A DNA stretch of 38,708 nt from a virus. Below the pieces are notes generated by a model. The model was not told the origin of the DNA. It saw only the letters and a program-made list of their open reading frames with translations, and searched no databases. Location of the stretch: the IMG/VR virus record IMGVR_UViG_3300042549_006369, positions 1 to 38,708 of that record. One strand, written 5' to 3'. Shown here piece by piece: positions 1-36,306 of this stretch (position 1 is its first letter; every line of letters begins with the position of its first letter). Made by a program: the position numbers and the translations under genes.

Positions 1-1
1 G

Positions 2-355
2 AGGTTCTTTGCCAAGCGCGAAAAACACCCCGAATACCTCGACCGCAACGGCAACCGCAAAAAGATCCTGCACACGGTTCGCCAGCACCGCCGAGTTACT
101 GCTTCTGGGGCAACGTCGGTGAAGTGGCACGTTCGGGGCCTTGATGACTTTGAAACACACGGGTTTCGGTTCAGGGTTATCGCCCCTAACGTCTCGGGGG
201 TTTCTCCGGTGGACTTTGCTTTGCGGCCTATCACCATCTCTGAGACGCAACCGGCGCCAAAAGGCCACATTGGCATGGTTGCGCTGGCAAACCTTCTAGC
301 GCGATCTAACCCGAGAAACAGGCAATGGCAAAAGCGGTTGACCTCCGCCGCCTAG
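2..355 (+). CDS. Truncated gene of unknown function (5' end outside window)
   Basis: The reading frame is open from the first bases of the window to TAG at 353-355, so the N-terminus is missing and at least 117 residues remain. The fragment begins RFFAKREKHPEYLDRNG and is rich in Lys, Arg and His. It then has a mixed hydrophobic segment containing WHVRGLDDFETHGFRFRV. I do not recognise the family. A GTG at 119 could serve as a start, but the coding-like sequence continues upstream of it. It overlaps the next gene by 31 nt in another frame. In a circular genome it would follow the helicase gene cut at the right end, so it is probably the last part of the replication/early module. The function is unknown. 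Confidence 0.6.
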   Translation, partial: RFFAKREKHPEYLDRNGNRKKILHTVRQHRRVTASGATSVKWHVRGLDDFETHGFRFRVIAPNVSGVSPVDFALRPITISETQPAPKGHIGMVALANLLARSNPRNRQWQKRLTSAA

Positions 356-609
356 CCGCCGGCCGTCCCTGCATCCTGTGCGGGGCCGAGGGCACCACCG
401 TGCTGGCCCACCTGAACATCAGCGGGCATTTCGGGAAAGGGCTAAAGGCCAACGACTTCCCGTGGGGCGTCTGGCTGTGTCACGCCTGCCACAGCTATGT
501 GGACGGCGAGGGACGGGGCGACTGGAAAATCAAGTTTCGCGCCCTGGGTCAGCAGATGGAACGGTATCTCACGGAAGGGATCATCCATGTCCGAACCAAT
601 CACCATTGA
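325..609 (+). CDS. DUF1364-like zinc-binding (HNH-type) phage protein
   Basis: A 94-residue protein starting at ATG 325. Visible putative metal ligands are C16 and C19 (CILC), H29, H35 and the cluster C52-x2-C55-H56 (CHACH), arranged as in DUF1364 proteins. These are small zinc proteins related to HNH/NinG-type nucleases and are usually encoded between the replication and packaging genes of temperate phages. A role in recombination or DNA end processing is inferred from the family neighbourhood and not shown here. It overlaps the truncated upstream gene by 31 nt and the next gene by 23 nt, consistent with translational coupling. Family assignment is fairly confident; catalytic activity is not. 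Confidence 0.72.
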   Translation: MAKAVDLRRLAAGRPCILCGAEGTTVLAHLNISGHFGKGLKANDFPWGVWLCHACHSYVDGEGRGDWKIKFRALGQQMERYLTEGIIHVRTNHH

Positions 610-799
610 CGGCATCCAGTTCGTGCCGGTGATGGAGTCCCGCGGGAAAAGGGCCGACGGCTCGCTGCGCTACGGTCCCGCCAGTCTCAACGGCCGCGCC
701 CTGTACGCACTACCGGGTGGACTCATGGCCTACGAGACAGATTTGGAGCGCATCGCCCGCTGGCTAAAATCCACTCGCATTCCCCACTCGCACGGATAG
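587..799 (+). CDS. Small hypothetical protein
   Basis: A 70-residue protein starting at ATG 587, with a good Shine-Dalgarno-like GGAAGGG just upstream. It begins MSEPITIDGIQFVPVMESRG and carries a short block (RADGSLRYGPASLNGRALYA) followed by a hydrophilic C-terminus. The start lies inside the previous gene (23-nt overlap). The same frame is open back to a GTG at 497, but the coding-like part begins at 587. The last 30 nt overlap the late-promoter-like element in front of the next gene. Family and function are not recognised. Confidence 0.55.
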   Translation: MSEPITIDGIQFVPVMESRGKRADGSLRYGPASLNGRALYALPGGLMAYETDLERIARWLKSTRIPHSHG

Positions 800-808
800 A
801 CTCTGCCC
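768..808 (+). promoter_or_regulatory. Late-region repeated element, copy 1 (diverged; putative promoter)
   Basis: AATCCACTCG (768-777) followed at 799-804 by GACTCT, ending 4 nt before ATG 809. It is a diverged match to the near-identical elements at 2641, 5527 and 16718 (AATCCACTTG, then GAGTCTCGGGGC). The spacing is about one base different and the GGGG tract is replaced by GCCC. It sits at the start of the packaging operon, where a late promoter would be expected. It is called only by comparison with the better copies. Confidence 0.4.
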
Positions 809-1084
809 ATGCTGTCAGACCAACAGGTGGCGTCCGGCGTCCGCAGTTTTATTTTTCGCGGCCTGCGCGGGCTCAAGGCGTGGATGGCGAGTGCCGACGA
901 CCTGCGCCATGAAAAGCTGACCGAAGCCCTCGTCAGCCAGTTCGCCGAGCAGATCGCCCGCGAACTCGGGGTAACCGAAAAGCCCCACCCGTGGCGTGCT
1001 GGCAATGCCGTGAAGCGTGGACCGGGACGGCCCCGTAAGTCCGACCAGACAGCCGCCGAAATTACCGAAGCGCCAAACATTTGA
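809..1084 (+). CDS. Small protein upstream of terminase; AT-hook-like tail
   Basis: A 91-residue protein starting at ATG 809, 4 nt downstream of the GACTCT of a repeated late element and without an obvious Shine-Dalgarno sequence, so it may be translated leaderless. The N-terminal two thirds look helical (SFIFRGLRGLKAWMASADDL, then EALVSQFAEQIARELGV). The C-terminus contains RGPGRPRKSDQ, which resembles an AT-hook (GRPRK core). It lies directly before the small terminase gene, so a DNA-packaging accessory or regulatory role is possible. That rests on position and the basic motif only. Confidence 0.55.
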   Translation: MLSDQQVASGVRSFIFRGLRGLKAWMASADDLRHEKLTEALVSQFAEQIARELGVTEKPHPWRAGNAVKRGPGRPRKSDQTAAEITEAPNI

Positions 1085-1085
1085 C

Positions 1086-1346
1086 ATGGCCGCTCGACTC
1101 AATCGCCGGCAGCAGGACAGCGTGCGCGAGAACATCCGCGCCAGCCAGATCGTGAACCGCTTGCAGGATCACGTTCAGGGCACTGTGGAACTCAGCCCCA
1201 CGCAGATTCAGGCCGCGCGCATCCTGCTGGACAAGTGCGTGCCGAACCTCGCCAGCATCGACCAGAACGTCACGGGCGAAGTCCTGTACCACGTTGCCAC
1301 GGGCGTGCCTGTCCCCGAGAATGACGGCGTATCCGTCTCGCACTGA
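1086..1346 (+). CDS. terS: Terminase small subunit (putative)
   Basis: An 86-residue protein starting at ATG 1086, 1 nt after the preceding TGA. The central part, VNRLQDHVQGTVELSPTQIQ followed by AARILLDKCVPNL, matches the small DNA-recognition protein found next to TerL in many proteobacterial phages. Its length is close to T7 gp18 (89 aa). TerS recognises phage DNA and hands it to the large subunit for packaging into the prohead. The gene overlaps the TerL start by 26 nt in another frame, so the two are probably co-translated. The assignment rests on the conserved core and on immediate adjacency to terL. Confidence 0.72.
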   Translation: MAARLNRRQQDSVRENIRASQIVNRLQDHVQGTVELSPTQIQAARILLDKCVPNLASIDQNVTGEVLYHVATGVPVPENDGVSVSH

Positions 1347-2640
1347 GACGGTAGACCTCGGGTTCCGGCCCCGTTCCTGGCAGGCCGAGTTCTACCGCAA
1401 GCGGCGGCGGTTCAACGCGCTGGTCGTCCACCGACGGGGTGGCAAGACCCTGCTCGCGATCATGCTCCTGATCGACGAGGCTTTGCGCTGCCCCAAGGCC
1501 CTTGGGCGGTTTGCCTACGTCGCGCCTGAACTCAAACAGGCGAAGGCGATTGCGTGGGACTACCTCAAGCTCACGGCCGCCAAGGTTCCCGGTTCCACCC
1601 GCAACGAGTCCGAACTGTGGGTCGAGTTCCCGAACGGCGCCCGCATTCGCATTTTCGGCGCGGACAATCCCGACAGCCTACGCGGCGCCTACTGGGACGG
1701 CGTGGTCCTGGACGAGGTGGCGCAGATGAAACCCGAGGTGTGGGGCGAGGTGATCCGCCCCGCCTTGGGTGACCGGCAGGGCTGGGCGCTGTTCATTGGC
1801 ACGCCGAAGGGTATCAACCTGTTTTCGGAAATCTATTTCCGCGCCCTCGACGACCCCGAGTGGCACGCCGGGCTGTATCGGTGGGACCAGACCGGGGCGC
1901 TATCGGACTCGGAAATCGACGCCATGCGCGGGGACATGAGCGCCCAGCAGTGGCGGCAGGAAATGGAATGCGACTTCGCGGCGTCGGGCGAGAACAACCT
2001 GATCGCCCTTGACCTGGTGGACGCCGCCATGAAGCGGACGATCCCCGAACACGCCTACCAGTGGTCGGCCTGCCTGCTGGGCGTGGACGTGGCGAGGCAG
2101 GGTGTGGACAAGACCGTGATCCAGCGCCGGCAGGGCATGAAAGCCTTTCCGCCGATCACGCTGGCGCAGTATGACGCCATGGCCGTGGCGGATGCCGTGG
2201 CTGGCGAGATCATGCGCCACAAGCCCGACGGGGTGTTCGTGGACGGTTCTGGTGGCTACGGGGCGGGGGTCATCGACCGGCTGCGGCAACTGAAAATCCG
2301 CGTGACTGAAGTCCAGTTCGGCGGCAAGCCTGAGGATCAGCGGTTTGCGAACAAACGGGCCGAGATGTGGTGGCGGATGCGGGAATGGCTGGAGCAGGGG
2401 GCGAGCCTGCCGAATATCCCTGCCTATCGGGTGGAACTGACCGGCCCGACCTACGATCACCACAACGCCGCCGGCAAGCTGCAACTGGAATCCAAGGAAA
2501 AGCTGATCGCTCGGGGCCTCAAGTCCCCCGACCACGGCGACGCCCTGGCCCTGACGTTCGCGCACACCGTCATTCCGCCGGATATGCGGCCCCGCAGACC
2601 GGCCAAGGCGATCACCGAATACAACGAGTTTCGCCGCTAA
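1321..2640 (+). CDS. terL: Terminase large subunit
   Basis: A 439-residue packaging motor with an ATPase and an RNase H-fold nuclease domain. Visible in order: adenine-binding-like RSWQAEFY (18-25), Walker A HRRGGKT (37-43), Walker B VVLDE (128-132), coupling motif IGTPKG (159-164). The nuclease acidic residues are D256 (GVDVARQG), D308 (FVDGSGGYG) and D407 (DHGDAL). It is shorter than T7 gp19 (586 aa) but carries all key motifs. ATG 1321 is preferred over the in-frame GTG at 1294 because homology-like sequence starts after it and it overlaps terS modestly. It docks on the portal to translocate DNA. The stop codon directly abuts a repeated promoter-like element. Confidence 0.96.
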   Translation: MTAYPSRTETVDLGFRPRSWQAEFYRKRRRFNALVVHRRGGKTLLAIMLLIDEALRCPKALGRFAYVAPELKQAKAIAWDYLKLTAAKVPGSTRNESELWVEFPNGARIRIFGADNPDSLRGAYWDGVVLDEVAQMKPEVWGEVIRPALGDRQGWALFIGTPKGINLFSEIYFRALDDPEWHAGLYRWDQTGALSDSEIDAMRGDMSAQQWRQEMECDFAASGENNLIALDLVDAAMKRTIPEHAYQWSACLLGVDVARQGVDKTVIQRRQGMKAFPPITLAQYDAMAVADAVAGEIMRHKPDGVFVDGSGGYGAGVIDRLRQLKIRVTEVQFGGKPEDQRFANKRAEMWWRMREWLEQGASLPNIPAYRVELTGPTYDHHNAAGKLQLESKEKLIARGLKSPDHGDALALTFAHTVIPPDMRPRRPAKAITEYNEFRR

Positions 2641-2682
2641 AATCCACTTGCCCCCGCTGCCGTGCGCAGCGAGTCTCGGGGC
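2641..2682 (+). promoter_or_regulatory. Late-region repeated element, copy 2 (putative leaderless promoter)
   Basis: AATCCACTTG at 2641-2650, 20 nt later GAGTCTCGGGGC at 2671-2682, then ATG at 2683. It is identical in both blocks and in spacing to the copy at 16718, and nearly so to 5527. Read as a promoter: TTGCCC at 2648-2653, 17-nt spacer, GAGTCT at 2671-2676, putative +1 at about 2682-2684, which is the start codon. No Shine-Dalgarno sequence lies at normal spacing. The repeated blocks are seen directly; the promoter role is inferred. Confidence 0.62.
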
Positions 2683-2868
2683 ATGAGCGGCCTTTTCAGC
2701 CCCCCGAAGGTTTCCACGCCAGCGGTTCCCACGCGGGACGAGGCCAAGGAATCGCAGCAGATCGAGGACCGCCTGCGTAGACGGCAGGGCACGGCCGCCA
2801 CGATCCTCACCAGCCCCTTGGGCGCACCGCCCCCGACGACCGCTGCCAAGACCCTGATGGGCCAGTAA
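2683..2868 (+). CDS. Small hypothetical protein before portal
   Basis: A 61-residue protein starting MSGLFSPPKVSTPAVP, then a charged helical stretch (RDEAKESQQIEDRLRRRQGT) and a Pro/Ala/Thr-rich tail. Such short N-terminally Pro-rich proteins are common just before T7-like portal genes in temperate podoviruses, but I know of no assigned function. The ATG at 2683 is taken because it follows the repeated element exactly as at 16760. An upstream in-frame start would lie inside the element. Its TAA overlaps the portal ATG by one base, so translation is probably coupled. Confidence 0.6.
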   Translation: MSGLFSPPKVSTPAVPTRDEAKESQQIEDRLRRRQGTAATILTSPLGAPPPTTAAKTLMGQ

Positions 2869-4478
2869 TGGACTCCCGGGTCGCGGACATCATTGCCCGC
2901 CAAGCCGCGCTGGAGTCGGAGCGGTACAACTTCCAGTCGCTCTGGCAGGACGTGGCCGAACTGATCCTGCCGGGTGAAGGAAACTTCATCACCCAGTCCT
3001 CGCCGGGCGAGCAGCGCACCGAACGGGTGATGGATAGCACGGGGATGCTGGCGCTGCGGAAGTACGCCGCGCTGGTCGAGTCCCTGCTGATGCCGGCCGG
3101 CAAGACCTACCACCGGATCAAGGCCAGCGACCCGAACTTGGGCGAGGACGACGAGGTCAAGGCGTATTTCGATCAGGTCACCCGCCTGCTGTTCAAGCAG
3201 CGGTACGCGACCAATTCGGGGTTTGGCACGCAGATCGGCATGACGTGCCTGGGCTTCGGGGCCTTCGGCAACGGCTCGTTGTTCATTGACGAGGACGCCA
3301 CCGGGCTCCGGTATCGCACCATGCCGCTGTCCGAGACGTTCTTTACCGAGAACGCGCAGGGGCTGGTGGACGGCGTGCTGCGCAAGTTCAAGCTGACCGC
3401 CCGTCAGATCGTGCTGTTCTACGGCAACCTCGCGGGGGCGACGGTTCCCCAGCAGGCTGAGGAGGCCATGCGCAAGGGCCGGCCCGACCAGCCGTTCACG
3501 CTCGTGCATTGCGTGAAGCCGGCGGGTGAGTACCGCGAGAAGTGGGTGGCGGCCCGGGGGTTCCAGTACGTCGCTCACACCGTCTGCCTGGAATCCAAGA
3601 CCCTGATTCGGGAATCCGGCTACCGGACCTTCCCCTATGCGGTCATGCGGGACATCGGGGTAGCCGGTGAGTTGTACGGCCGCAGCCCCGCGATGTGGTC
3701 GCTGCCCACGCTCAAGATGCTGAACGAGATGAAGCGCACCATCCTCCGTGGCGCGCAGAAGATCGTGGACCCGCCGCTGCTGGCGCCCGATGGGGACGGG
3801 ATCCTCGGCGCCTTCGACCTGCGCCCGGGGGCCATGAACTACGGGGCGGTGAATCCGCAGGGGGTTCCGGTCGTGCAGCCGTTGCAGACGGGGGCCCGGA
3901 CGGACATCGGCGTTGACCTGTTGCAGATGGAACAGCAACTGGTCAACGAGTCGTTTTACATCACCCTGTTCCAGATCCTCGCGGAAAACCCGCGCATGAC
4001 CGCCACCGAGGTCATGGAGCGGGCAGCCGAAAAGTCGCAGCTACTCGCCCCGTCGATTGGCCGGCTGCAATCCGAGTTCCTGGGCGGCCTTGTGGCTCGC
4101 GAGCTTGATGTCCTCGCGGCCCGCATGGAACTGCCGCCGATGCCCCCGCAGCTTGCCGAGGCCGGTGGCGCCTACGAGCTTGAGATGGAATCCCCGCTTT
4201 CCCGTGCCCAGCGGGCCGAGGACGGCGTGGCGATTGTCCGCACCCTTGAGGTGGCGATGCAGGGCGCGCAGATCGACCCGAGCATCCTGGACAACTACGA
4301 CCTTGACGAGATGTTCAAGGGGCTGGCCGAGATCAACGGGGTTCCCGCCAAGATGCTGCGTTCGCGGGATGCCCGCGACCAGATGCGCGAGCAGCGGGCC
4401 CAGCAGCAAGCCTTGGTGCAGGCCGCTGAACTCGCGCCGGGTGTGGCGAAGGCCGCCAAGGATATGCAGGCCGCTTGA
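2868..4478 (+). CDS. Portal (head-tail connector) protein, T7 gp8-like
   Basis: A 536-residue protein, the same length as T7 gp8, of the bacteriophage head-to-tail connecting protein family (PF12236). The N-terminus has the typical pattern of a helical start, then WQDVAELILPGEGNF and DSTGMLALRKYAALVES. GFGAFGNGSLFIDED (about 125-140) and the central MKRTILRGAQKIVDPPLLAP are also characteristic. The C-terminal 70 residues are helical and Gln/Ala-rich, as in the barrel/crown of portals. It forms the dodecameric ring through which TerL pumps DNA and to which the tail attaches. It overlaps its neighbours by 1 nt upstream and 4 nt downstream. Confidence 0.95.
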   Translation: MDSRVADIIARQAALESERYNFQSLWQDVAELILPGEGNFITQSSPGEQRTERVMDSTGMLALRKYAALVESLLMPAGKTYHRIKASDPNLGEDDEVKAYFDQVTRLLFKQRYATNSGFGTQIGMTCLGFGAFGNGSLFIDEDATGLRYRTMPLSETFFTENAQGLVDGVLRKFKLTARQIVLFYGNLAGATVPQQAEEAMRKGRPDQPFTLVHCVKPAGEYREKWVAARGFQYVAHTVCLESKTLIRESGYRTFPYAVMRDIGVAGELYGRSPAMWSLPTLKMLNEMKRTILRGAQKIVDPPLLAPDGDGILGAFDLRPGAMNYGAVNPQGVPVVQPLQTGARTDIGVDLLQMEQQLVNESFYITLFQILAENPRMTATEVMERAAEKSQLLAPSIGRLQSEFLGGLVARELDVLAARMELPPMPPQLAEAGGAYELEMESPLSRAQRAEDGVAIVRTLEVAMQGAQIDPSILDNYDLDEMFKGLAEINGVPAKMLRSRDARDQMREQRAQQQALVQAAELAPGVAKAAKDMQAA

Positions 4479-4765
4479 ACCTCCGCGACGCCATCGACCG
4501 TCGGCTGCACCGGAAGGCCGACTACCAGAACTGTTTCCTCACGCCCGAGGGTAAGCCGACTGCGGCCGGCGAGCGGGTGTTGAAGGACCTGGCCCGCTTC
4601 TGCCGGGCAAACCAGTCCACGACCGTTGTATCCCCCCTCACGCGCACCGTGGACCCCGTGGCGTCGGCCTTGGCCGAGGGGCGACGTGAGGTGTTCCTGC
4701 GGATCGTCCGGCACCTGTACCTGGACGACGCTTATCTGACCCGACTGGAGACCGCCAATGAGTGA
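4475..4765 (+). CDS. Bbp19-like phage protein
   Basis: A 96-residue protein starting at TTG 4475 that overlaps the portal stop (TTGA). The pattern NCFLTPEGKPTAAGERVLKD, LARFCRANQST and VDPVASALAEGRREVFLRI is that of the small Bbp19-like family encoded between portal and scaffold in BPP-1-type podoviruses. The family's role is undetermined; position suggests head assembly. The next gene starts inside it (8-nt overlap). Family identity is fairly secure because motif and synteny agree. Confidence 0.78.
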   Translation: MNLRDAIDRRLHRKADYQNCFLTPEGKPTAAGERVLKDLARFCRANQSTTVVSPLTRTVDPVASALAEGRREVFLRIVRHLYLDDAYLTRLETANE

Positions 4766-5525
4766 CCCGACCCCGAATGCCGCCCCGTGGTACGCCGAGG
4801 CGCTGCCCGCCGAAACCCACGAGTTCGTGGCGAACAAGGCGTGGAAAGGCCCTGCCGACGTGGTGAACGCCTACCAGAGCCTTGAGCGGTTCGTGGGGGC
4901 CGAGAAAGCCGGTCGCGGCGTGATCCTGCCGAAGGACGACAACGACGCCGACGGCTGGAACGGGCTGTACCAGAAGCTTGGCCGGCCCGAGAAGCCCGAG
5001 GGCTACGGGCTGGAATCCGACTTCGGCAAGGCCGCTGCCCCGTGGCTGCACGAGGCGGGGCTGACCCCACGGCAGGCCAAGGCGCTGGCGTCCAAGTGGG
5101 ACGGCTACGTCTCAAGCCAGCAGGAAGCCCAGCAGAAGGCGCTCGCCGACCAGTGGGAGCAGGAATCCGCCGCCCTCAAGTCCGAGTGGGGCGACAAGTA
5201 CGACGCCAACCTCGACGTTGCCAAGCGCGCCGCCCAGCGACTGGGGGTTGACGAAGCAACGCTGGAGAAGATCCAAGCGGGCATGGGTCAGGCCGGGCTC
5301 ATGAAGTTTATGTCCCAGGTCGGCGCGCTGTTCGCCGAGGACAAGTCGCCCGAGGGCACGCGCCCTGCCGGTGGTCGCACGCCGGAAGTCGCGCAGGCCG
5401 AGATTCGCGCGCTGATGACGGATCGCGACTTTGCGCAGAAGCGCATGGCCGGCGACCGCGACGCCATCAGGATGTGGAACGAACTGCACGAGCAGGCGTA
5501 CCCGGGGAAATTCCAAGCCGCGTAA
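4758..5525 (+). CDS. Putative capsid scaffolding / assembly protein
   Basis: A 255-residue acidic protein rich in Ala, Glu, Lys and Gln, without recognisable enzyme motifs. The N-terminus contains WYAEALPAETHEFVANKAWK, seen in phage scaffold-like proteins. The middle (about 110-170) is predicted coiled-coil helix (SQQEAQQKALADQWEQES). The C-terminus has a helical segment (AEIRALMTDRDFAQKRMAGD) typical of the capsid-binding end of scaffolds. Its position between portal and major capsid gene matches T7 gp9. It would act as an internal scaffold during prohead assembly and then exit. Start ATG 4758 has GGAG just upstream. Confidence 0.8.
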   Translation: MSDPTPNAAPWYAEALPAETHEFVANKAWKGPADVVNAYQSLERFVGAEKAGRGVILPKDDNDADGWNGLYQKLGRPEKPEGYGLESDFGKAAAPWLHEAGLTPRQAKALASKWDGYVSSQQEAQQKALADQWEQESAALKSEWGDKYDANLDVAKRAAQRLGVDEATLEKIQAGMGQAGLMKFMSQVGALFAEDKSPEGTRPAGGRTPEVAQAEIRALMTDRDFAQKRMAGDRDAIRMWNELHEQAYPGKFQAA

Positions 5526-5526
5526 G

Positions 5527-5568
5527 AATCCACTTGCACGCGTGAGTGCGCGGTGTTTGTCTCGGGGC
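5527..5568 (+). promoter_or_regulatory. Late-region repeated element, copy 3 (putative promoter of capsid gene)
   Basis: AATCCACTTG at 5527-5536 and, at the same spacing as copies 2 and 4, GTCTCGGGGC at 5559-5568 (TTGTCT replaces GAGTCT at 5557-5562). Unlike the other copies it is not followed by a start codon. The capsid ATG is 127 nt downstream, after a structured leader. This argues that the element acts at the DNA/transcription level and is not simply a translation start signal. Confidence 0.6.
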
Positions 5569-5695
5569 TAGCCGACAAGGTTACGCGCCCCGGCTGACCG
5601 CCTGAAAGCAGGCCGACTGGCCCCACGAAAGGGGCAAGGCAGGCCCCGCAAGGATAAGCCGCCGGAAACCCTCAACCAGTTTTCGGAGCTTTCAG
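5563..5695 (+). promoter_or_regulatory. Structured 5' leader of the major capsid mRNA
   Basis: A 133-nt non-coding stretch with three evident helices. H1: CGGGGC 5563-5568 with GCCCCG 5587-5592, an alternative being AGCCG 5570-5574 with CGGCT 5591-5595. H2: GCCTG 5600-5604 with CAGGC 5609-5613, loop AAAG. H3: GCCCC 5620-5624 with GGGGC 5631-5635, loop ACGAAA. The predicted transcript from the element at 5527 would start at about 5568, at the edge of this structure. A normal GGAG lies 7 nt before the capsid ATG. I cannot assign it to a known RNA class. A role in regulating or stabilising the most abundant mRNA is inferred. Confidence 0.5.
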
Positions 5696-6607
5696 ATGAG
5701 CGTCAACATTCTCAACGCGCAGGTGCAGCGTTTCGCGTCCGACGTGGAACTCCTGCTCCAGCAGACCGACAGCCGGCTCCAGCCCGCTGTTGATGTCGGC
5801 ACCGGCTACATGGGCAAGCAGGTGTCGCCGGTCGAGCAGATCGCGGCGATCACCGCTTCCAAGGTGACCACCCGTGGCGAGCCGATGCCGGCGACCGATG
5901 CGACCTTCGTGCGTCGGTGGGTGCTGCCCGAGGATTGGGATCTTGCCCAGCGGATCGACTCGTTCGATTCCCTGCGGCTGGCTCTCGACCAGGGCATCAA
6001 GTCCAAGTACGCGCAGAACGCCGTGGCGGCGCTGAACCGGGCCAAGGACAACGTGATCCTCTCGGCCATGTTCGGCACCAACCTGACCGGCGAGACGGCG
6101 GGCACCTCGACGACCTTCCCGAACGGGCAGGTGGTTGGCGTGTCGGTGGGCGCTACCACGTCGAACCTGACGGTTGCCAAGCTGAAGCGCGGTATGCGCA
6201 CGCTGCTGGCAAACGACGTGGATCTCTCCCGCGAGCAGGTCTACTGCGCCATCACGGCCAGCCAGCACGAGGCGCTGCTGAACGAGATCGAGATCACCTC
6301 GCAGGACTTCAACCCGGGCGAGCGCCCGGTGCTTGCGGACGGCATGGTGACCCGGTTCCTCGGCATCAACTTCATCCACACCGAGCTGGTCCCGACCGGC
6401 ACGGACGATGCGGCTGGTACCTCGCGCAGCGTCCCGCTGTTCGTCAAGTCGGGCGTTCACCTCGGCATCTGGTCGGACATCGCTGTGGACATCACCAAGC
6501 GCCGCGACCTTCGCTCGATCCCCTGGCAGGTCTACACCAAGCTGACCATTGGTGCGACCCGTCTGGACGAGGAGAAGGTCGTCCGCATCTGGTGCCGTGA
6601 GGCTTAA
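5696..6607 (+). CDS. Major capsid protein (BPP-1 Bbp17-type)
   Basis: A 303-residue HK97-fold-type major capsid protein. Characteristic stretches are QVSPVEQIAAITASKVTTRG (about 41-60), RRWVLPEDWDLAQRIDSFD (about 72-90) and KRRDLRSIPWQVYTKLTIGA, with ATRLDEEKVVRIWC at the C-terminus. These match the capsid family of BPP-1-type podoviruses. It forms the icosahedral shell and is followed directly by the cement gene. ATG 5696 has GGAG at 7 nt, and the upstream region is a structured leader. Codon use looks highly biased to G/C third positions, as expected for a strongly expressed gene. Confidence 0.9.
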   Translation: MSVNILNAQVQRFASDVELLLQQTDSRLQPAVDVGTGYMGKQVSPVEQIAAITASKVTTRGEPMPATDATFVRRWVLPEDWDLAQRIDSFDSLRLALDQGIKSKYAQNAVAALNRAKDNVILSAMFGTNLTGETAGTSTTFPNGQVVGVSVGATTSNLTVAKLKRGMRTLLANDVDLSREQVYCAITASQHEALLNEIEITSQDFNPGERPVLADGMVTRFLGINFIHTELVPTGTDDAAGTSRSVPLFVKSGVHLGIWSDIAVDITKRRDLRSIPWQVYTKLTIGATRLDEEKVVRIWCREA

Positions 6608-6617
6608 GGAGTAGACC

Positions 6618-7121
6618 ATGGCAGTTGTTAATCGCAGTTCGGACACCATCACCAACGCGACCGCGACCCCGGCGACGTTCAACAACGCCGGCAACGTGGG
6701 TGGCACGGTTCGTCACGCGGGTGGCTTCGTCACCGTCGCGGCCGACGACTCGACCACCAGCGTGCAGCGTGGTGCGCGGGTGCCGTCGAACGCCTATATC
6801 CAGCAGGTGCTGGTGTCGGCGGCCGACTTCACCACGGGTGGTGCCATCGACGTGGGCGTGTACCAGATCGCCGCCAATGGCGGTGCGGTCGTGGATGCGG
6901 ACCTGTTTGCCTCGGCCTTCGTGATGACGAACGGCCCGACCAGCAACGTGGACGTGACCCACGAGTCCGGTCAGTACACCGTCGCCGAGCGCAGCCAGCC
7001 GCTGTGGCAGGCGCTGGGTCTGTCCAGTGATCCCAACCGCGAGTACGACATCGCGGCGACGATCACCACCGACTTCAACGGTGGGCAGAACTACCGCATC
7101 GACGTGCTGTACACGCTCTAA
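6618..7121 (+). CDS. Capsid cement/decoration protein, Bbp16-like
   Basis: A 167-residue protein of the Bbp16 capsid cement type. It is almost entirely beta-rich with many small polar residues and ends NYRIDVLYTL, a typical jelly-roll C-terminus. Bbp16-like proteins bind the outside of the shell at symmetry axes and stabilise it. AAGGAG 8 nt upstream of ATG 6618 gives a strong ribosome-binding site, and only 10 nt separate it from the capsid stop. It is followed by a strong hairpin (7128-7145), consistent with a capsid-cement unit expressed above its downstream neighbours. Confidence 0.82.
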   Translation: MAVVNRSSDTITNATATPATFNNAGNVGGTVRHAGGFVTVAADDSTTSVQRGARVPSNAYIQQVLVSAADFTTGGAIDVGVYQIAANGGAVVDADLFASAFVMTNGPTSNVDVTHESGQYTVAERSQPLWQALGLSSDPNREYDIAATITTDFNGGQNYRIDVLYTL

Positions 7122-7127
7122 CGGATA

Positions 7128-7145
7128 GGGGGGCTTCGGCCCCCC
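7128..7145 (+). terminator. Strong GC hairpin with UUCG loop after the cement gene
   Basis: Perfect 7-bp stem GGGGGGC/GCCCCCC closing a TTCG tetraloop, 6 nt after the cement stop codon. No T-run follows (GATTCCC), so it is not a canonical intrinsic terminator. It may act as an mRNA 3'-end stabiliser or partial terminator limiting expression of the genes downstream of the capsid-cement pair. The structure is seen directly; its function is inferred. Confidence 0.55.
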
Positions 7146-7159
7146 GATTCCCTCACCTT

Positions 7160-7171
7160 AGGAGGTGATCC
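7160..7171 (+). promoter_or_regulatory. Extended perfect Shine-Dalgarno sequence
   Basis: AGGAGGTGATCC, 12 nt complementary to the 16S rRNA 3' tail, placed just before a TTG start codon (7173). Such an extended match is unusual. The spacing from the AGGAGG core to TTG is 7 nt. It decides the start of the 63-residue protein and may compensate for the weak TTG codon and the upstream hairpin. Confidence 0.75.
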
Positions 7172-7172
7172 T

Positions 7173-7364
7173 TTGGCTATCGACACCTATCTCTCGGTGG
7201 CGCTGGGCGAGGAAACCGCCAACGCCGTCACCAAGGGTGGCAGCGCCAGCGGCGAAGTGATCGAACTTACGTTCGACAAGAACGCCGTCAGCCGCTACCA
7301 ACTCATCAAGGGCGTTGAGGCGATCCTTCAGCGCATCCAGGCCGACGTGACGGTCACGAACTAA
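7173..7364 (+). CDS. Small hypothetical structural-region protein
   Basis: A 63-residue protein starting at TTG 7173, fixed by the 12-nt Shine-Dalgarno match ending at 7171. Sequence begins MAIDTYLSVALGEETANAVT and has a C-terminal helix (KGVEAILQRIQADVTV). No family is recognised. Its place between the cement and tail-adaptor genes suggests a minor head or completion protein. Its TAA overlaps the next ATG by one base. Confidence 0.65.
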   Translation: MAIDTYLSVALGEETANAVTKGGSASGEVIELTFDKNAVSRYQLIKGVEAILQRIQADVTVTN

Positions 7365-7684
7365 TGGCCAAGCTGCACACGTTCACGCTGACCACGGCGT
7401 CCCCCACGGGGGCGTCGTTCATTCCGGCGCAGCGCAACGAGGTGGGCGGCGTCATCGCCATCGGCGCCACGGGGACGTGGGGCGGCGCGACGCTGACCGT
7501 GCAGGCGGCCGTGGACGGGACGAACTTCGCCGCCGTCAAGCGGCCGGACGGTACGGACCTGACGTTCTCGGCCAACTTCGCGGACGGCCTCAGGCTGCCC
7601 CCGAACGTGCCGGTGCGGATGGTGCTGACCACGGTGGGGTCCGGCGCAAGCGTGGCCTGCGCCATTGCGTCCGACGGTGCCTAA
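7364..7684 (+). CDS. Putative minor structural (decoration-like) protein
   Basis: A 106-residue beta-rich protein. The repeated short strands (TLTVQAAVDGTNFAAVKR, ADGLRLPPNVPVRMVL) and absence of catalytic residues are typical of small phage decoration or head-tail joining proteins. I do not recognise a named family. It starts at ATG 7364 overlapping the upstream stop (TAATG), and the next gene starts immediately after its own stop. Role inferred from position between head and tail genes. Confidence 0.62.
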   Translation: MAKLHTFTLTTASPTGASFIPAQRNEVGGVIAIGATGTWGGATLTVQAAVDGTNFAAVKRPDGTDLTFSANFADGLRLPPNVPVRMVLTTVGSGASVACAIASDGA

Positions 7685-8287
7685 GTGGATGCGGTCGGGA
7701 TCGTCAATGCGGCGCTGGACAAGCTGGGCGTCGAGCCCATCGGGGCGCTGACCGACGACGTTAAGCAGGCGCGGGCGGCGAATCGGGTCTTTGACCGGCT
7801 GCGCGACCTGGAACTGACGCTGCACACCTGGCGATTCTCGGTCGCCCGGACGACCCTCCCCGCGTTGTCCACGGCCCCTGCCTTCGGGTATGCGCGGGCG
7901 TTTCAGGTGCCGGCCGACTTCCTGCGCCTGCTGTGGTGCGGGGACTATGCCCCCGGTGTAGACCTGACCGAAGTCCGGTCCAGCATGGACTCGCAGGATT
8001 GGACCATCGAGGGGCGGAACATCCTCACGAACTACGCCGCGCCCTTGAAGGTCGTGTACGTCCGCAAGGTCACGACGGTGGGCGAGTTCTCGCCCGAGTT
8101 CGCGGAATGTCTTGCCGGGCGGATTGCCGTGGAACTGTCCGGCCCGCTGACCGACAGCAACCCAAGACGTGAACAGGCCATGGCTGACTACCAGATGGCG
8201 CTGCGGATGGCGAAGCGGGCTAATGCGATCCAGCTTCCGCCGCAGCCGCTGGCCGACGATTCCTGGCTGCTAGCGCGGGGGCTGTAA
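7685..8287 (+). CDS. Tail tubular protein A-like adaptor (T7 gp11-like)
   Basis: A 200-residue protein, close in length to T7 gp11 (196 aa). The N-terminal MDAVGIVNAALDKLGVEPI and the following Arg/Asp-rich helix (ANRVFDRLRDLELTLHTW) are hallmarks of the podoviral gatekeeper/adaptor family that sits on the portal. The central block FQVPADFLRLLWCGDY and the C-terminal helices (FSPEFAECLAGRIAVEL) also fit. The start is GTG 7685, directly after the preceding stop. The large nozzle gene starts within its last base (TAATG), mirroring the T7 gene 11-12 order. Confidence 0.86.
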   Translation: MDAVGIVNAALDKLGVEPIGALTDDVKQARAANRVFDRLRDLELTLHTWRFSVARTTLPALSTAPAFGYARAFQVPADFLRLLWCGDYAPGVDLTEVRSSMDSQDWTIEGRNILTNYAAPLKVVYVRKVTTVGEFSPEFAECLAGRIAVELSGPLTDSNPRREQAMADYQMALRMAKRANAIQLPPQPLADDSWLLARGL

Positions 8288-10920
8288 TGCCTCGCGCCAG
8301 TCCGGCCGTCACCAACTTCAACGCAGGGGAACTCTCGCCACTGCTGGACGCCCGCGTCGATCTCGACTTCTACGGGAACGGCTGCGCGGACCTCAAGAAC
8401 TTCATTCCCACGGTGCAGGGCCCGGCGGTGTACCGCCCCGGGACCGTGTATGTGGATGCCGCCCTGTCCTCGGCGCAGCAGTCGTGGCTCAAGCGGTTTG
8501 AGTTCAACTACGAGCAGGCGTATGTGCTTGAGTTCAACAACGACCGGCTGGGCTTTTTCAGCAACCGCGGGCGGGTGCAGGTCAACGCCACGGTCACCAA
8601 CGTCGTTAACGACTTCGGGCTCTGCCGCTACACGACCGCTGCGCCCCATGGGTTGACCACGGGCCAGACGGTGACCATTGCGGGGGTGGTGGGCATCCCC
8701 CTCGCGAACGGGACGTATGGCGTTGTGGTCGTGTCCCCGACCGAGTTTGGCACTCTCGCGGCGTTCTCGGGGGCCTATATCTCGGGCGGGGCGGTAACGG
8801 CCGGCTACAGCATCGCGACCCCGTACACCACGGCCAGCCTCGTGAACCCCGACGGTTCCTGTGCCCTGTCCTCGGTGCAGATCGGCGACGTGGTGTATCT
8901 CGCTGGCGGTGGGCAGCCCCCGCAGACTCTCTCGCGGACGGCGCCGACAAGCTGGACCCTGGCCGAGTTCCGGCCGGACGACGGGCCCTACGAGGATCTC
9001 AACGACGACGAGAGCCTGACGGTGTATGCCTCGGCGGCCACCGGGACCGTGACCCTGACGGCCTCGGCGGCGCTGTTCACGGCCAACCATGTGGGGGCGC
9101 TGTTTCGCATCGAGCCCATTGAGGCCGACGTGCAGCAGTGGACGCCGACCAGCCCGACGTTCTCGGTGGGCTCGTTCTGCCGCTACGGGGCGAACTACTA
9201 CGAGGCGGTGAACCCGTCCTACGGGTCGAACAACGGCACCGTCCCCCCGACCCACACGGCGGGCGAGGAACTGGACGGCACCACGAACGCCGGCCGGACG
9301 TGGCGGTATCTGCATTCCGGGTATGGGGTGGTGCGGATCACCGGCTTCACGTCGGCTACGGTGGTGACGGCCACGGTCCTCTCGCGCCTGCCGGCGGATG
9401 TGGTGGGCTCGGGCAAGGCGACCTGGCGGTGGCGGATGGGGGCGTGGGGCGCCCATGCTGAATATCCGACCCGCGTGACGCTGTGGCGCGACCGGCTGGT
9501 GTTTTCCGGCCTGCGGCGGGTGTGGATGAGTCAGTCAAACGACTTCGACAGCTTCGCCCCCGACGAGTTTGGCGAGACCACGGCGCTTTCGGGGGTGGTC
9601 GTGGAACCCGCCTCGACGGACAACAACGCCATTCGCTGGATCGCCCCGGCGGATGCGCTGCTTGTGGGGACTGCCTCGACCGAGTTCGCGGTGTCCGAAA
9701 TCACCGATTCCGACCCCTTCGGCCCCGCCAACGTCAAGGCGGTGCCGCAGTCGCGGGAAGGGGGGCGAGCAGTTCCCCCCGTGCAGGTGGGGGATTCGAC
9801 GTTCTTTGTGCATCGCTCTGGTGGGCTCAGGGAAACCGCGATCCGGGATACGGGCAAGTACGGCGCCTCGGACCTGAGCGTCCGGGCTGAACACTTGGCC
9901 GACAACATCGTGGACATGGCCTACCAGTCCGAGCCCGACAGTGTGGTGTGGGTGGTGTCGGGCGATGCCCTCACAGGGCTGACGTATGACCCCGGACAGC
10001 AGGTTATCGGCTGGCACCAGCACCCGGGCCTTACCGTCGAGAGCGTGGCTGTAATCCCGTCTCCTGACGGCACGCGGGACGACGTGTGGCTGTCGGTGCT
10101 GCGGGGGACGAGCCGGGCCATTGAGCGGATCGGGGTGGGCCATGAGGCCGGCGCCGATCCTTACGAGGCGATCTATCTGGACGCAGCCGTGAGCTACGAC
10201 GGCACGCAGAACGTGACCCTCAACAGTTCGCCCGTGAGTGCGGCGGTGGGGACGACGGCGACCTTCACGGCGGGGTCAAGCAAGTTTGCGGTTGGTGATG
10301 TGGGGCGGTTCATCCATGCCCGCTATCAGAGCGGATCGACGTGGGTTTCGTGCAAGGCGCAGATTACGGCCTATCTGTCGGCCACTCAGGTACAGGCCAC
10401 GATCCTGGCGGCCTTCCCGAGTGCCATTCCGACGACGTGGCGGCTGTCCGTGACGCAGGTGTCTGGAGTCCCCCCGGTCCTTCAGGGGCGAACGGTGGGC
10501 CTGCTGCTGGACGGCTCGGCCTACGAGGCGACGGGGGCCGAGCCCTTGGTGCTGCCCGTCCCGGCTTCCCGAGTCCATGTGGGCATCCCGTACACCGGCC
10601 AGCTTCGGCCCATGCGGCTGGAGGCGGGGTCGGCTGAGGGTGTTGCCCAAGGCAAGGTCAAGCGGATCAGCAAGGTGGTGGTGCGGATGCAGGACACCGC
10701 CGGCATTCGCTTGGGCTCGACGTTCACGAATCTGGACGAGGTGGTGCTGAGAAAGCCTTCGGACCTCATGGACGAGCCCGTCCCCCTTTACACGGGCGAC
10801 AAGCTCATGGAATTTCGCGGGGGCTTCGACACCGACGGCTATATCTGCGTCGAGCAGTCCAAGCCCCTGCCGGCCACCATCGTGGGCCTGTTCCCGCAGG
10901 TGAACACCAGTGATCGTTAG
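8287..10920 (+). CDS. Tail tubular protein B-like nozzle (T7 gp12-like)
   Basis: An 877-residue beta-rich protein; T7 gp12 is 794 aa. It begins SPAVTNFNAGELSPLLDARV, followed by DLKNFIPTVQGPAVYRPGT, the conserved N-terminus of the podoviral nozzle family. EYPTRVTLWRDRLVFSGLR and VWMSQSNDFDSF (about 395-420) are typical of its propeller core. It forms the hexameric tail tip that binds the adaptor and the fibres and opens for ejection. Its 3' end overlaps the next gene by 11 nt. Confidence 0.9.
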   Translation: MPRASPAVTNFNAGELSPLLDARVDLDFYGNGCADLKNFIPTVQGPAVYRPGTVYVDAALSSAQQSWLKRFEFNYEQAYVLEFNNDRLGFFSNRGRVQVNATVTNVVNDFGLCRYTTAAPHGLTTGQTVTIAGVVGIPLANGTYGVVVVSPTEFGTLAAFSGAYISGGAVTAGYSIATPYTTASLVNPDGSCALSSVQIGDVVYLAGGGQPPQTLSRTAPTSWTLAEFRPDDGPYEDLNDDESLTVYASAATGTVTLTASAALFTANHVGALFRIEPIEADVQQWTPTSPTFSVGSFCRYGANYYEAVNPSYGSNNGTVPPTHTAGEELDGTTNAGRTWRYLHSGYGVVRITGFTSATVVTATVLSRLPADVVGSGKATWRWRMGAWGAHAEYPTRVTLWRDRLVFSGLRRVWMSQSNDFDSFAPDEFGETTALSGVVVEPASTDNNAIRWIAPADALLVGTASTEFAVSEITDSDPFGPANVKAVPQSREGGRAVPPVQVGDSTFFVHRSGGLRETAIRDTGKYGASDLSVRAEHLADNIVDMAYQSEPDSVVWVVSGDALTGLTYDPGQQVIGWHQHPGLTVESVAVIPSPDGTRDDVWLSVLRGTSRAIERIGVGHEAGADPYEAIYLDAAVSYDGTQNVTLNSSPVSAAVGTTATFTAGSSKFAVGDVGRFIHARYQSGSTWVSCKAQITAYLSATQVQATILAAFPSAIPTTWRLSVTQVSGVPPVLQGRTVGLLLDGSAYEATGAEPLVLPVPASRVHVGIPYTGQLRPMRLEAGSAEGVAQGKVKRISKVVVRMQDTAGIRLGSTFTNLDEVVLRKPSDLMDEPVPLYTGDKLMEFRGGFDTDGYICVEQSKPLPATIVGLFPQVNTSDR

Positions 10921-11305
10921 GAAGTTCCGCCGGAACGACCTCGCGGCCCTGCCGGTGCAGACGCGGCAGCGGGCGACGCTGGCCCTGCTGGATGCCGGGT
11001 CCATGGCGCTGATCGATTCCGGCCCTGCCTACACGTTGGACGACGACGGTCCCAAGGCGTGCGCGGGGATTGCGTACACGGAAACGGCCCCGGTGGCGTG
11101 GGCGTGGCTGGCCGAGGACGCGCCGATGCTTGCTCTGCACAGGTACGTCAAGGCGGCCCTTGCGGCGGTCCCGTACTGCATGGCGTATGCGGCCCTCGAC
11201 TGGCCCCAAGCGGTGCGCTGGCTGGAACTGCTGGGCTTTGAGCCGACGGGCGAACAGGAAAACTTGGGAGGCAGCCTTCACGGGCTGTTCGTGCGGTATG
11301 GCTGA
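10910..11305 (+). CDS. T7 gp13-like internal virion protein (DUF2833)
   Basis: A 131-residue protein of the DUF2833 / T7 gp13 type (gp13 is 138 aa), with an acetyltransferase-like fold in some relatives. MIVRKFRRNDLAALPVQ and the C-terminal LDWPQAVRWLELLGFEPTGE resemble GNAT-like motifs around the last helix. In T7, gp13 is needed for virion infectivity. It starts at GTG 10910 inside the nozzle gene, with AGGTGA just upstream. It overlaps the next gene by 8 nt. Confidence 0.75.
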   Translation: MIVRKFRRNDLAALPVQTRQRATLALLDAGSMALIDSGPAYTLDDDGPKACAGIAYTETAPVAWAWLAEDAPMLALHRYVKAALAAVPYCMAYAALDWPQAVRWLELLGFEPTGEQENLGGSLHGLFVRYG

Positions 11306-11756
11306 TCCAGTCACGCTGATGATGGTCGGGTCTGCGGTCAGTGCTGGTGCACAGGGCATTGGCGCCGTCGGCACCTATTTCCAGGGCCGGGGCGACGCCA
11401 AGAACCTCAATGCGCGGGCGAACCAGACCCTTGCGGAAACCGGGGCGGCCGAGCAGGCCCAGCGCCGGCAGTCCACGCAGGCCCTCGCGAATATGCAGGC
11501 CGCGCAGGCGCAGTCCGGTGTGGTTGGTGGCTCTACGGCTGACGTGTACCGGCAGTCCGCCATCGACGCCGAGCTTGACGCGCTGAACATCCGGTACGAG
11601 GGCTACAGCCGCGCCTCGGCCATGAAGCAGCAGGCCCGCGCCACCAAGAAGGCGGCGACGGCTTCGGCCATTCTCGGGCTGGTGTCGGCAGGGGCCACGG
11701 CGGTTGGCGGGGTGGGCGAGGCGAAAGCCTACCAGTCGCGGATGAAGGTGCAGTAA
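11298..11756 (+). CDS. Internal virion protein, T7 gp14-like
   Basis: A 152-residue protein with hydrophobic ends (VTLMMVGSAVSAGAQGIGAV at the N-terminus; ASAILGLVSAGATAVGGVG near the C-terminus) around a Gln/Ala/Arg-rich helix. This layout is that of T7 gp14-like ejection proteins (T7 gp14 is 196 aa), which form the outer-membrane channel of the ejectosome. ATG 11298 overlaps the previous gene by 8 nt and was preferred over an upstream in-frame GTG that would lie deep in that gene. Its TAA overlaps the next ATG. Confidence 0.78.
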   Translation: MADPVTLMMVGSAVSAGAQGIGAVGTYFQGRGDAKNLNARANQTLAETGAAEQAQRRQSTQALANMQAAQAQSGVVGGSTADVYRQSAIDAELDALNIRYEGYSRASAMKQQARATKKAATASAILGLVSAGATAVGGVGEAKAYQSRMKVQ

Positions 11757-13873
11757 TGCCGCAGATTCCCGTCTACACGCAGCAGACTGTTCCCCGTGGA
11801 ACACAGGCGATCCCGCAGCAGCCGGACCTGACGCGGGATCTCGCCATTGCCGGCGCCTCGATCCAGCGGGCGACGGACGCGTGGGCGCGGAAGCTCGATG
11901 CGGATGCGGCGGCGTTTGCCACTACGGCATTCCCCGAGTTCCGGCGCGCCCAGGAAGATGCCCTGAGCAATCGGGCGCTGGCGGAAAAGAACGGCGCCCC
12001 CGACTTCGCGGCGCGGTTCGACAAGGACTTTGAGACTGCCGCCACCGAACTGGTCAAGCGCGCCCCGAACGAGACGGCTCGGGCTTACTTGCAGCAGAAG
12101 GTCGGCCAGTACCGCGAGGAAGTGTTTTCCCGCGCCAAGCGGTTTGAGGCCGAGGAAGGGCTGCGGCACCGCACGTCGCTGGTGGACACGGGCAACAGCG
12201 CGGCGGCTGACTATGCGGGCCGGTTCCCTGACCGGACGTTTGAACTGATCGCGGAGCGGTACGACGCCATTGACGCGTCGATGATCGGCCCGGAGGCGGC
12301 GGCCGAGAAGAAGGCCGAGGCCAGCGCGTCAATCCTGTTTTCGGCCGGGGCTGCCTCAGCGGCCCAAAACCCGCGCGGGACGCTGGCCGCCCTGAACGAC
12401 CCCAATCACCCGATCTTCCGGGCAATGGACGACACCGCCAAGGCGGCGATTGCCAAAGCGGCGGAAGGTGCCGTGGTGGACGGCGCGGCCAATCAGATCG
12501 TGGCTGCCTACGAACGCAGCTTCGCGATGGGCGACCAGGCCCTTGCCGGTCTGGATGCTGAAAACCTGCCGCCGGAAATGTCCTACGAGGTGCGGTCCAA
12601 GGTGCGCGAGCGCGTCAACCTGCTGCAAGAGGAGCGGCGGCGCCAGAACATTGACGCGCTGGCTGGCCTTGAGCGGCGGATTGCTACGGGGGCAGCCGGT
12701 GACGTGGAGGGCGAGGCCCGCCGGCTGTACAACCTCGGGGCGATGTCGGAAGCCGGGTATCTGGAAAAGGTCGGACAGGCCGCGCGGGCGCGCGAGCAGG
12801 CGGCAGCGCAGGGGGCCGAGGCGGCGGCGTTGCGCAGCCTGCTGACGGCCGGTGGCACGCTGGACCCGAAAGACCCGGTGGCCCGCAAGTTCGTGGATTC
12901 GACCTTCGCGGAATCGTCCAAGGGGCTGCCCAAGGGTGGTGAGGCGTGGTCCGCCTTGGCGGCCGACCTGTCGTCGCGGACGGGCGTGGTCCCTGGCGAG
13001 GTGCAGTCCTGGCTGCGCGTGTCGGCCCTTGGTGGTGACCCGCAGGTGGCGGCGCAGTCGGCGGATTGGGTCAGCACCGTGCAGGCCAAGAACCCGCTGG
13101 TGCTGGAATACCTCGACGCCGATACCAAGTCCTTTGCGCTACAGGTGGCGGGCATGGTGGATGCCGGCGCCGACCCGCAGACGGCCGTGGAGACGGTGCG
13201 GAAAAACGTCTATCAGACGCCGCCGCAGCAGAAGGAAGTTTATCGCGAGCAGTTCAACCGGGCGCTCAAGGAGCCGAGCAAGGCACTTAACGGCCTGATG
13301 TCGTCCGACGACACCTTTGACCCGTCGGTGTTCTCGTTCTCGCCCGACCCGCCCCCGGCGATGGCGGCCGACTTTGAGGCGCTGGCGCGGCAGTATTTCG
13401 CGACCTCCGGCGGGGATATGGAAACCGCGCAACGGCTGGCTTATGCCGACCTGAAAACCCGGTGGGGGCGCTCGACCGTCAACGGCAGGCCCGAGGCCAT
13501 GCGCTATGCGCCGGAAATCTTCGGCATCGACCCGAGCCGCGTCCGGGCCGACCTTGAACAAGCCTACCCCGGCCAGCAGACGCGGCTGATTGCCGACGCC
13601 CTGACCGAGCGGCGCGGCTTCCGGCGTGACGGTACGCCGCTGCCGGTGTCGTGGGCGATTGCCGCCGTGGACCCGCAGACGGGTGAAATCCAGATCATGC
13701 CCGACCGCTGGGCGCTGCCGAGTGCCGCGCAGCTTGAGGGCGAGGTGCAGGCCAAGCGCGACGCGGCCGTGGCGGCGGCCCGTGTTGAGAGCGAGCGCCG
13801 CCGCCGGATTGCCGAGGCGTCCGACCGCGCCGAGCGCATCGAGTCTCGCGTCGGCAACCTGCGGCAACAGTAA
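11756..13873 (+). CDS. Internal virion/ejection protein, T7 gp15-like
   Basis: A 705-residue, mostly alpha-helical, Ala/Glu/Arg-rich protein; T7 gp15 is 747 aa. No catalytic motif is visible. Its N-terminus (MPQIPVYTQQTVPRGTQ) and long helical body suit the periplasmic tunnel component of the podoviral ejectosome. Position between gp14-like and gp16-like genes is syntenic with T7. It overlaps both neighbours by one base (TAATG), so the three ejection proteins are co-translated. Confidence 0.8.
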   Translation: MPQIPVYTQQTVPRGTQAIPQQPDLTRDLAIAGASIQRATDAWARKLDADAAAFATTAFPEFRRAQEDALSNRALAEKNGAPDFAARFDKDFETAATELVKRAPNETARAYLQQKVGQYREEVFSRAKRFEAEEGLRHRTSLVDTGNSAAADYAGRFPDRTFELIAERYDAIDASMIGPEAAAEKKAEASASILFSAGAASAAQNPRGTLAALNDPNHPIFRAMDDTAKAAIAKAAEGAVVDGAANQIVAAYERSFAMGDQALAGLDAENLPPEMSYEVRSKVRERVNLLQEERRRQNIDALAGLERRIATGAAGDVEGEARRLYNLGAMSEAGYLEKVGQAARAREQAAAQGAEAAALRSLLTAGGTLDPKDPVARKFVDSTFAESSKGLPKGGEAWSALAADLSSRTGVVPGEVQSWLRVSALGGDPQVAAQSADWVSTVQAKNPLVLEYLDADTKSFALQVAGMVDAGADPQTAVETVRKNVYQTPPQQKEVYREQFNRALKEPSKALNGLMSSDDTFDPSVFSFSPDPPPAMAADFEALARQYFATSGGDMETAQRLAYADLKTRWGRSTVNGRPEAMRYAPEIFGIDPSRVRADLEQAYPGQQTRLIADALTERRGFRRDGTPLPVSWAIAAVDPQTGEIQIMPDRWALPSAAQLEGEVQAKRDAAVAAARVESERRRRIAEASDRAERIESRVGNLRQQ

Positions 13874-16719: not shown

Positions 16720-16759
16720 TCCACTTGCTCCCCCTCGCCCCAGCGGCGAGTCTCGGGGC
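16718..16759 (+). promoter_or_regulatory. Late-region repeated element, copy 4 (putative leaderless promoter)
   Basis: AATCCACTTG at 16718-16727 and GAGTCTCGGGGC at 16748-16759, then ATG at 16760. Both blocks, the spacing and the ATG distance are identical to the copy at 2641, while the spacer differs, so selection acts on the two blocks. It overlaps the stop codon of the ejection-protein gene and opens the tail-fibre operon. A weaker look-alike (TTGCCA 16773, 17 nt, GATTCT 16796) follows before the fibre ATG at 16810 and may be chance. Confidence 0.62.
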
Positions 16760-16813
16760 ATGAAACTGCGCGTTGCCACGGCCGCCGGTCACGGCGATTC
16801 TCGGGCGTCATGA
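16760..16813 (+). CDS. 17-codon leader ORF coupled to the tail-fibre gene
   Basis: ATG 16760 follows the repeated element without a gap, as at 2683. It encodes MKLRVATAAGHGDSRAS and ends in TGA 16811-16813, which overlaps the fibre ATG (16810-16812) as ATGA. No Shine-Dalgarno sequence precedes the fibre ATG. A short leaderless ORF delivering ribosomes to the fibre start by termination-reinitiation is therefore a plausible reading. The peptide itself resembles nothing I know. It could also be simply an untranslated leader. Confidence 0.4.
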   Translation: MKLRVATAAGHGDSRAS

Positions 16814-25540: not shown

Positions 25541-25565
25541 CGCACAACCCGATCCGAGTCTGAGC
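25525..25565 (+). promoter_or_regulatory. Late-region repeated element, copy 5 (diverged)
   Basis: CACTTG at 25529-25534 and GAGTCT at 25556-25561, 4 nt before ATG 25566. The -35-like TTGATC (25532-25537) is 18 nt from GAGTCT. Spacing and the lack of a Shine-Dalgarno sequence match the other copies, but AATC and the CGGGGC tail are not conserved. It lies between the SGNH hydrolase and the lysis/small tail gene block. Confidence 0.4.
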
Positions 25566-36300: not shown

Positions 36301-36306
36301 CGCGGA

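Follow-up and report, generated by a model that had tools for sequence, protein, structure and literature searches.

Late-region locus and genome context

In the window, which is the whole 38,708-base viral record (IMG/VR) analysed here, the 42-nt gap after TerL is occupied entirely by one copy of a recurrent two-block element (copy 2), with a 61-aa gene and then the portal gene downstream. The element copies and their neighbouring features are as follows.

765–808, + strand: element copy 1, TAAAATCCACTCGC, then TAGACTCTGCCC directly before ATG 809
809–1084, + strand: ORF downstream of copy 1, followed by a putative small terminase (1086–1346) and TerL (1321–2640)
2641–2682, + strand: element copy 2 (reference), AATCCACTTGC, spacer, GAGTCTCGGGGC; predicted +1 at the A of ATG 2683
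2683–2868, + strand: 61-aa protein (phrog_831) between TerL and portal
5527–5568, + strand: element copy 3, AATCCACTTGC, spacer, TTGTCTCGGGGC; TAG next, no ATG
5569–5695, + strand: non-coding leader from copy 3 to the capsid ATG 5696, with a Shine-Dalgarno GGAG before the ATG
5696–6607, + strand: major capsid protein (Pfam Phage_capsid_2, phrog_3437)
16718–16759, + strand: element copy 4, blocks identical to copy 2; predicted +1 at the A of ATG 16760
16760–16813, + strand: 17-codon ORF whose stop overlaps (TCATGA) the start of a tail-fibre-type gene at 16810
25525–25565, + strand: candidate copy 5 (weak), CACTTG, 21 nt, GAGTCTGAGC, ATG 25566
36271–36306, + strand: probable early rightward sigma70 promoter (for comparison), TTGACT-16-TATACA by direct reading

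Copies 1–4 are found where the packaging, portal, capsid and fibre modules begin, in most cases directly behind a stop codon. Specifically, copy 1 overlaps the end of ORF 497–799, whose TAG stop sits in the −10 of the element, copy 3 comes after ORF 4758–5525 with the capsid gene starting 127 nt downstream, and copy 4 comes after ORF 13873–16719. The sequence-only reading had placed every copy at the head of a functional block, which holds for packaging, portal, capsid and fibre; its assignment of the copy at 25525 to lysis is loose, the amidase gene (30297) lying 4.7 kb further on. Four copies do end 4–6 nt before an ATG, as that reading had it, but ATG 16760 opens just a 17-codon ORF. The start of the phrog_831 gene at 2683 agrees with the family profile and is without a Shine-Dalgarno sequence at normal distance, and the fibre-type gene start at 16810 coincides with the start of PHROG tail profiles. 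One late gap, 7121–7173, is without an element copy and instead carries a strong GC hairpin (GGGGGGCTTCGGCCCCCC, without a T run) and a near-perfect Shine-Dalgarno sequence (AGGAGGTGATCC), together spanning 7128–7172, before a TTG start at 7173.

A contig from another sample (L004) equals window positions 1–7792 and 35813–38708 exactly and bridges the window end to the window start through 2,894 extra bases. Since it closes end to start, the genome size comes to about 41.6 kb, in a circular or circularly permuted form. Encoded on it are TerL, a head-tail connector portal, a Phage_capsid_2 capsid and a T7-tail-type fibre protein, a leftward block of Erf, SSB, excisionase and integrase, a regulatory pair of a repressor and a P22-Cro-like protein, and rightward primosome- and primase-type genes. 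The gene set (TerL, portal, capsid and fibre; integrase and repressor/Cro; a probable attP) identifies the phage as a temperate podovirus. It is a bacterial virus previously unrecorded, and its protein-level kin, as judged from sequence, are BcepC6B and BPP-1. A half tRNA-Lys(TTT) with a CCA end lies at window 30840–30886 beside the leftward integrase and is probably the attP core. Of its bases, 28 agree without mismatch with a tRNA-Lys in a single genome of the collection, a Dehalococcoidia MAG; this was not taken to show the host, since the match is a 28-mer of tRNA sequence only and the relatives of Cro and integrase are proteobacterial phage proteins. Additionally, an int-alpA RNA (RF02996, 54 bits) lies at window 36954–37022, just 5′ of the primosome-type gene at 37036.

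Sequence and statistics of the two-block element

The pattern AATCCACTTG-N20-GAGTCTCGGGGC is exact (0 mismatches) at 2641–2682 and 16718–16759, while the copy at 5527–5568 carries 2 mismatches, both in the GA, its second block reading GTCTCGGGGC. Alignment of the copies gives AATCCACTTGC as the fuller form of the first block. The pattern did not occur in 100 dinucleotide shuffles, which confirms the earlier observation of identical blocks and spacing at 2641 and 16718 with a variant at 5527. In a motif-free paired-block search, the 2641/16718 pair ranks first in the window with 29 identical bases and a spacer that is 47% identical; codon-shuffled windows gave 19–21 identical bases, with a maximum of 21. 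Block identity alongside diverged spacers is thus far beyond shuffles, in agreement with the proposal that the blocks are conserved and not merely duplicated DNA. Because the conserved blocks flank unconserved 20-nt spacers, selection at base level is required. Near-identical contigs from other samples hold the same copies, so the element is not an assembly artefact.

A search with the 16-mer TAAAATCCACTTGCCC, allowing up to 3 mismatches on both strands, returned just 3 non-self sites, all on the + strand and all at these elements, as against 2 such sites in total over 60 shuffles. The first block of the 768 copy, TAAAATCCACTCGC, is among the three. This block has TAAAATCCACT-GC in common with 2641, a match rare in shuffles, and on that account 768 is taken as a true fourth copy. 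Its second block, TAGACTCTGCCC, is diverged and one base nearer the first block, the spacing being 19 (to TAGACT) or 21 (to GACTCT) and not 20. Taken by itself, its two-block score (16) is what chance gives (9 in 10 shuffles). The 25525 copy matches at 7/10 and 7/12 positions at N21, whereas each shuffled window holds about 35 sites that score as high, and its sole support is the core CACTTG-N21-GAGTCT adjoining an ATG. It is a weak candidate, not significant alone and indistinguishable from chance. Of the two diverged copies proposed earlier, therefore, the one at 768 stands through its first block and the one at 25525 scores at chance. All five are + strand sites within the rightward late region, as first described, and the strand bias extends to the motifs themselves, with + to − counts of 4:0 for GTCTCGGG and 3:0 for GAGTCTC.

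Promoter-like geometry of the element

The element can be read against the geometry of sigma70 promoters, the position of class II activators and the spacing of ECF sigma promoters. When copy 2 is numbered with ATG 2683 as +1, TTGCCC occupies −35 to −30, GAGTCT −12 to −7 and AATCCAC −42 to −36. The hexamers TTGCCC/TTGCTC/TTGCAC and GAGTCT/TTGTCT are separated by 17 nt (16 in copy 1), within the 16–18 nt of sigma70 promoters, and 6 nt lie between GAGTCT and the ATG in the reference copies. The hexamer match to sigma70 is poor, with 3–4 of 6 positions for TTGCNN and 2 of 6 for GAGTCT, in line with the earlier remark that the latter is not a sigma70 −10; a scan for consensus sigma70 promoters listed no element copy. 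Of the core −10 bases, A−11 and T−7 are kept in copies 1, 2 and 4, and T−7 in copy 3. An ECF sigma promoter (AAC-type −35, about 15–17 nt, GTC-type −10) was rejected, the distance from CACTT to GTCT being 23 nt in copy 2.

Outside TTG and the −10 hexamer, 14 bases are invariant in the three strong copies, comprising AATCCAC, the C after TTG, and CGGGGC. AATCCAC stands at −42 to −36 in these copies and in copy 1, a conserved motif where an activator could bind, and we infer protein binding there. Since the hexamers are poor yet bases outside them are invariant in the strong copies, a helper factor of phage or host origin is suggested. At 5527 the element is followed by a capsid leader that has a Shine-Dalgarno sequence of its own, which points to a signal for transcription and not for translation. 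The idea of a promoter family, as originally put forward, is supported by sequence alone, through strand specificity, position at module starts, the 17-nt spacing and a +1 where expected. On balance we favour the element being a clade-private family of late promoters of this temperate podovirus, an assignment we hold to be probable though well short of secure.

Under the promoter reading, the host's RNA polymerase carrying the main sigma factor would read TTGC.. at −35 and GAGTCT/TTGTCT (TAGACT in copy 1) as the −10. A phage or host helper would be needed since both hexamers are weak. It would probably contact AATCCAC, whose location (−42 to −36) is that of class II activators, and the CGGGGC discriminator would tune initiation. 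The +1 is predicted 7 nt past the end of the −10 hexamer. Messages would then be leaderless at ATG 2683 and ATG 809, beginning on the A in both. At 16760 the first base would be the A of a short ORF that lies ahead of the fibre gene and is coupled to it, and copy 3 would start transcription 127 nt upstream of the capsid gene. Several such promoters may boost late transcription, replacing or adding to read-through from the early rightward promoter.

The proteins scanned (a subset of ORFs) yielded no sigma factor, RNA polymerase or known late activator; a Q-type antiterminator and an Ogr- or Mor/C-type protein were likewise not seen among them. Two small phrog_1065 proteins (weak match) precede the late genes and are candidates for a late regulator. 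They are adjacent paralogues with a shared RKRR/HKRR-G-THEQA motif, lying between the replication and late genes in L004 (about 4020–4390).

Predicted leaderless starts

Two or three copies may start the message exactly at the start codon. The sequence-only reading had placed the predicted +1 at the ATG; it falls on the A of the ATG at 2683, 809 and 16760, on the G at 25566, and at 5527 there is no ATG to coincide with. Leaderless initiation, likewise proposed for the family as a whole, is plausible at 2683 and 809, where the predicted +1 is the A of the gene's own ATG, and ambiguous at 16760, where the ATG opens the 17-codon ORF; it does not extend to 5527 or to 25566. Many genes in this phage are without a Shine-Dalgarno sequence and overlap the preceding gene, so lacking it does little to support a leaderless start. 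At the early rightward promoter, TATACA ends 8 nt before the Cro-like ATG 36307 and the predicted +1 lies about 1–2 nt before this ATG, and the Cro-like gene also seems nearly leaderless.

An exact-pattern scan of IMG/VR with CACTTG-N21-AGTCTC-N5-ATG returned sigma70-type leaderless layouts (TTG-17/18-TAGTCT-N6-ATG), better-looking than those of this phage, in three unrelated viral contigs, L257, L265 and L272, with TTGACG, TAGTCT and the ATG of a 225-aa ORF in L265, and TTGTCA, TAGTCT and the ATG of a 115-aa ORF in L272. These layouts are suggestive and not proof, because AGTCT was part of the query. Three further unrelated viral contigs (L260, L271 and L275) also show TTG, a 17-nt spacer, TAGTCT, 6 nt and ATG.

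Alternative readings of the element

The element could instead be where a phage protein other than an activator binds DNA, for example a repressor silencing late genes in the lysogen, with mycobacteriophage stoperators as the comparison. The phage is temperate and has a repressor and Cro, and the sites are identical, asymmetric, on one strand and at module boundaries. However, the repressor-Cro region is without any copy, though operators of the same protein would be expected there, the two blocks stand at promoter spacing rather than forming one compact or palindromic site, and three copies are in exact register with an ATG; we therefore regard a repressor site as unlikely. It is even less probable that the sites mark a recombination or packaging landmark, or a recently spread boundary sequence with no regulatory role. 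Module boundaries are where phages recombine, yet a copied boundary would keep its spacer, and here the spacers are unconserved; this is the least probable of the readings weighed.

Two further alternatives act on the message; like the repressor and boundary readings, each breaks down on at least one copy. A hairpin in read-through mRNA might hide the AUG or mark a processing site, and copies 2 and 4 do share a similar two-stem fold (6-bp outer stem, 6-bp inner stem, 5-nt loop; z −2.3 and −2.6) with inner-stem sequences that differ between them. The inner stems are at shifted positions, so these changes are not true covariation, which counts against the hairpin, and copies 1, 3 and 5 fold no better than shuffles (z +0.5 to +0.8), copy 3 still keeping both blocks. 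This lack of a fold in three copies is the strongest point against an RNA-level element, which is quite unlikely. A translation-start signal would resemble the Start-Associated Sequences (SAS) of cluster K mycobacteriophages, a 13-bp GGGATAGGAGCCC with an AGGAG core, typically 3–7 nt before the ATG of non-structural genes (PMC3203893). Short one-orientation repeats a few bases before the ATGs of unrelated genes are found in both, and both are asymmetric, mostly in one orientation, nearly clade-private and sometimes include the upstream stop codon. Unlike SAS, the present element has another sequence, two blocks 20 nt apart, structural genes downstream and one copy without an ATG. Its block 1 sits 32–42 nt 5′ of the ATG, past the usual ribosome-binding site. 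The strongest evidence against a translation signal is the 5527 copy without an ATG, where the first gene start, that of the capsid gene, comes 127 nt later and has a separate Shine-Dalgarno sequence, and we judge this reading very unlikely. Equally improbable is a composite scheme in which an as yet undescribed type of specificity factor, encoded by the phage, would recognise AATCCACTTGC...GTCTCGGGGC and make leaderless late structural mRNAs. In read-through mRNA the same sequence would, in copies 2 and 4, fold into a hairpin that pairs with the AUG region, tying translation of these genes to late initiation.

Comparison with known late-control systems

The favoured late-promoter family has parallels in temperate phages. 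P2 Ogr and Mu C drive activator-dependent late promoters, the P2 site being a dyad near −55. As in P2 and Mu, several late operons each start from a weak sigma70 core that is accompanied upstream by a conserved motif; the Mu C sites differ in sequence, and here the discriminator is conserved down to −1 too. The element also resembles leaderless sigma70-type promoters (TTGACA-17-TANNNT-6/7-ATG) in spacing and in the predicted +1 on the ATG, but its −10 is mostly GAGTCT and one strong copy is without an ATG. Leaderless mRNA is common in mycobacteria (PMC4633059). The phiEco32-like phage 7-11 encodes a sigma factor and places its late genes under a phage-specific promoter class (PMC8948821); such a class is predicted here as well, whereas no sigma-like protein was seen among the proteins scanned. 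The element is best filed, from its sequence features, as a clade-private addition to a kind of phage late promoter already known. If true, it would provide a compact late-control code for an uncultured group of BPP-1/BcepC6B-like temperate podoviruses and would add an unusual example of leaderless messages from a late structural region.

Conservation beyond this genome

After near-identical strains, the nearest phages share at most 58% (TerL), 53% (capsid) and 45% (portal) protein identity. The motif is absent from 21 whole related records, searched with 3 mismatches allowed, and from the TerL–portal gaps of about 110 relatives, and scans of first about 80 and then about 250 related loci gave no homologous copy. 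IMG/VR scans with either block loosened found two copies solely in near-identical strains, and the matches of the loosened block-1 scan were set aside as they look like coding coincidences. No clear comparable two-block family emerged in relatives, either from an exact-seed search or from 50-nt upstream windows of 11 other genomes, the best pairs in both resembling coding repeats. TANNNT-N5-7-RTG is not enriched after TerL in relatives (16 versus 18.4 in shuffles). AGTCT boxes at matching places in three BcepC6B gaps were dropped, having no common partner block at a fixed distance. Absence at 58% protein identity or below would be expected if promoter specificity turns over quickly. The outcome therefore neither clearly bears out nor clearly defeats the sequence-only reading, which had named lack of the two blocks in related phages as a refutation. 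If the promoter reading is true, a late-control code can be confined to a narrow clade, and motif searches across relatives would miss it.

Because the motif carriers are near-identical strains alone, selection on the blocks is shown by comparison within the genome only. The near relative L085 (93% identical overall) is uninformative on selection because its sequence around copy 3 is identical. Over window 5088–11828 the two sequences stay identical until about 6.75 kb, beyond which divergence reaches as much as 17% in 250 bases, a pattern that looks like a recombination junction just 3′ of the capsid gene. In another contig, L026, an operator-like inverted repeat, GTTCCCTCT-N11-AGAGGGAAC, occurs in two copies (1737–1766 and 1964–1993) 227 bases apart.
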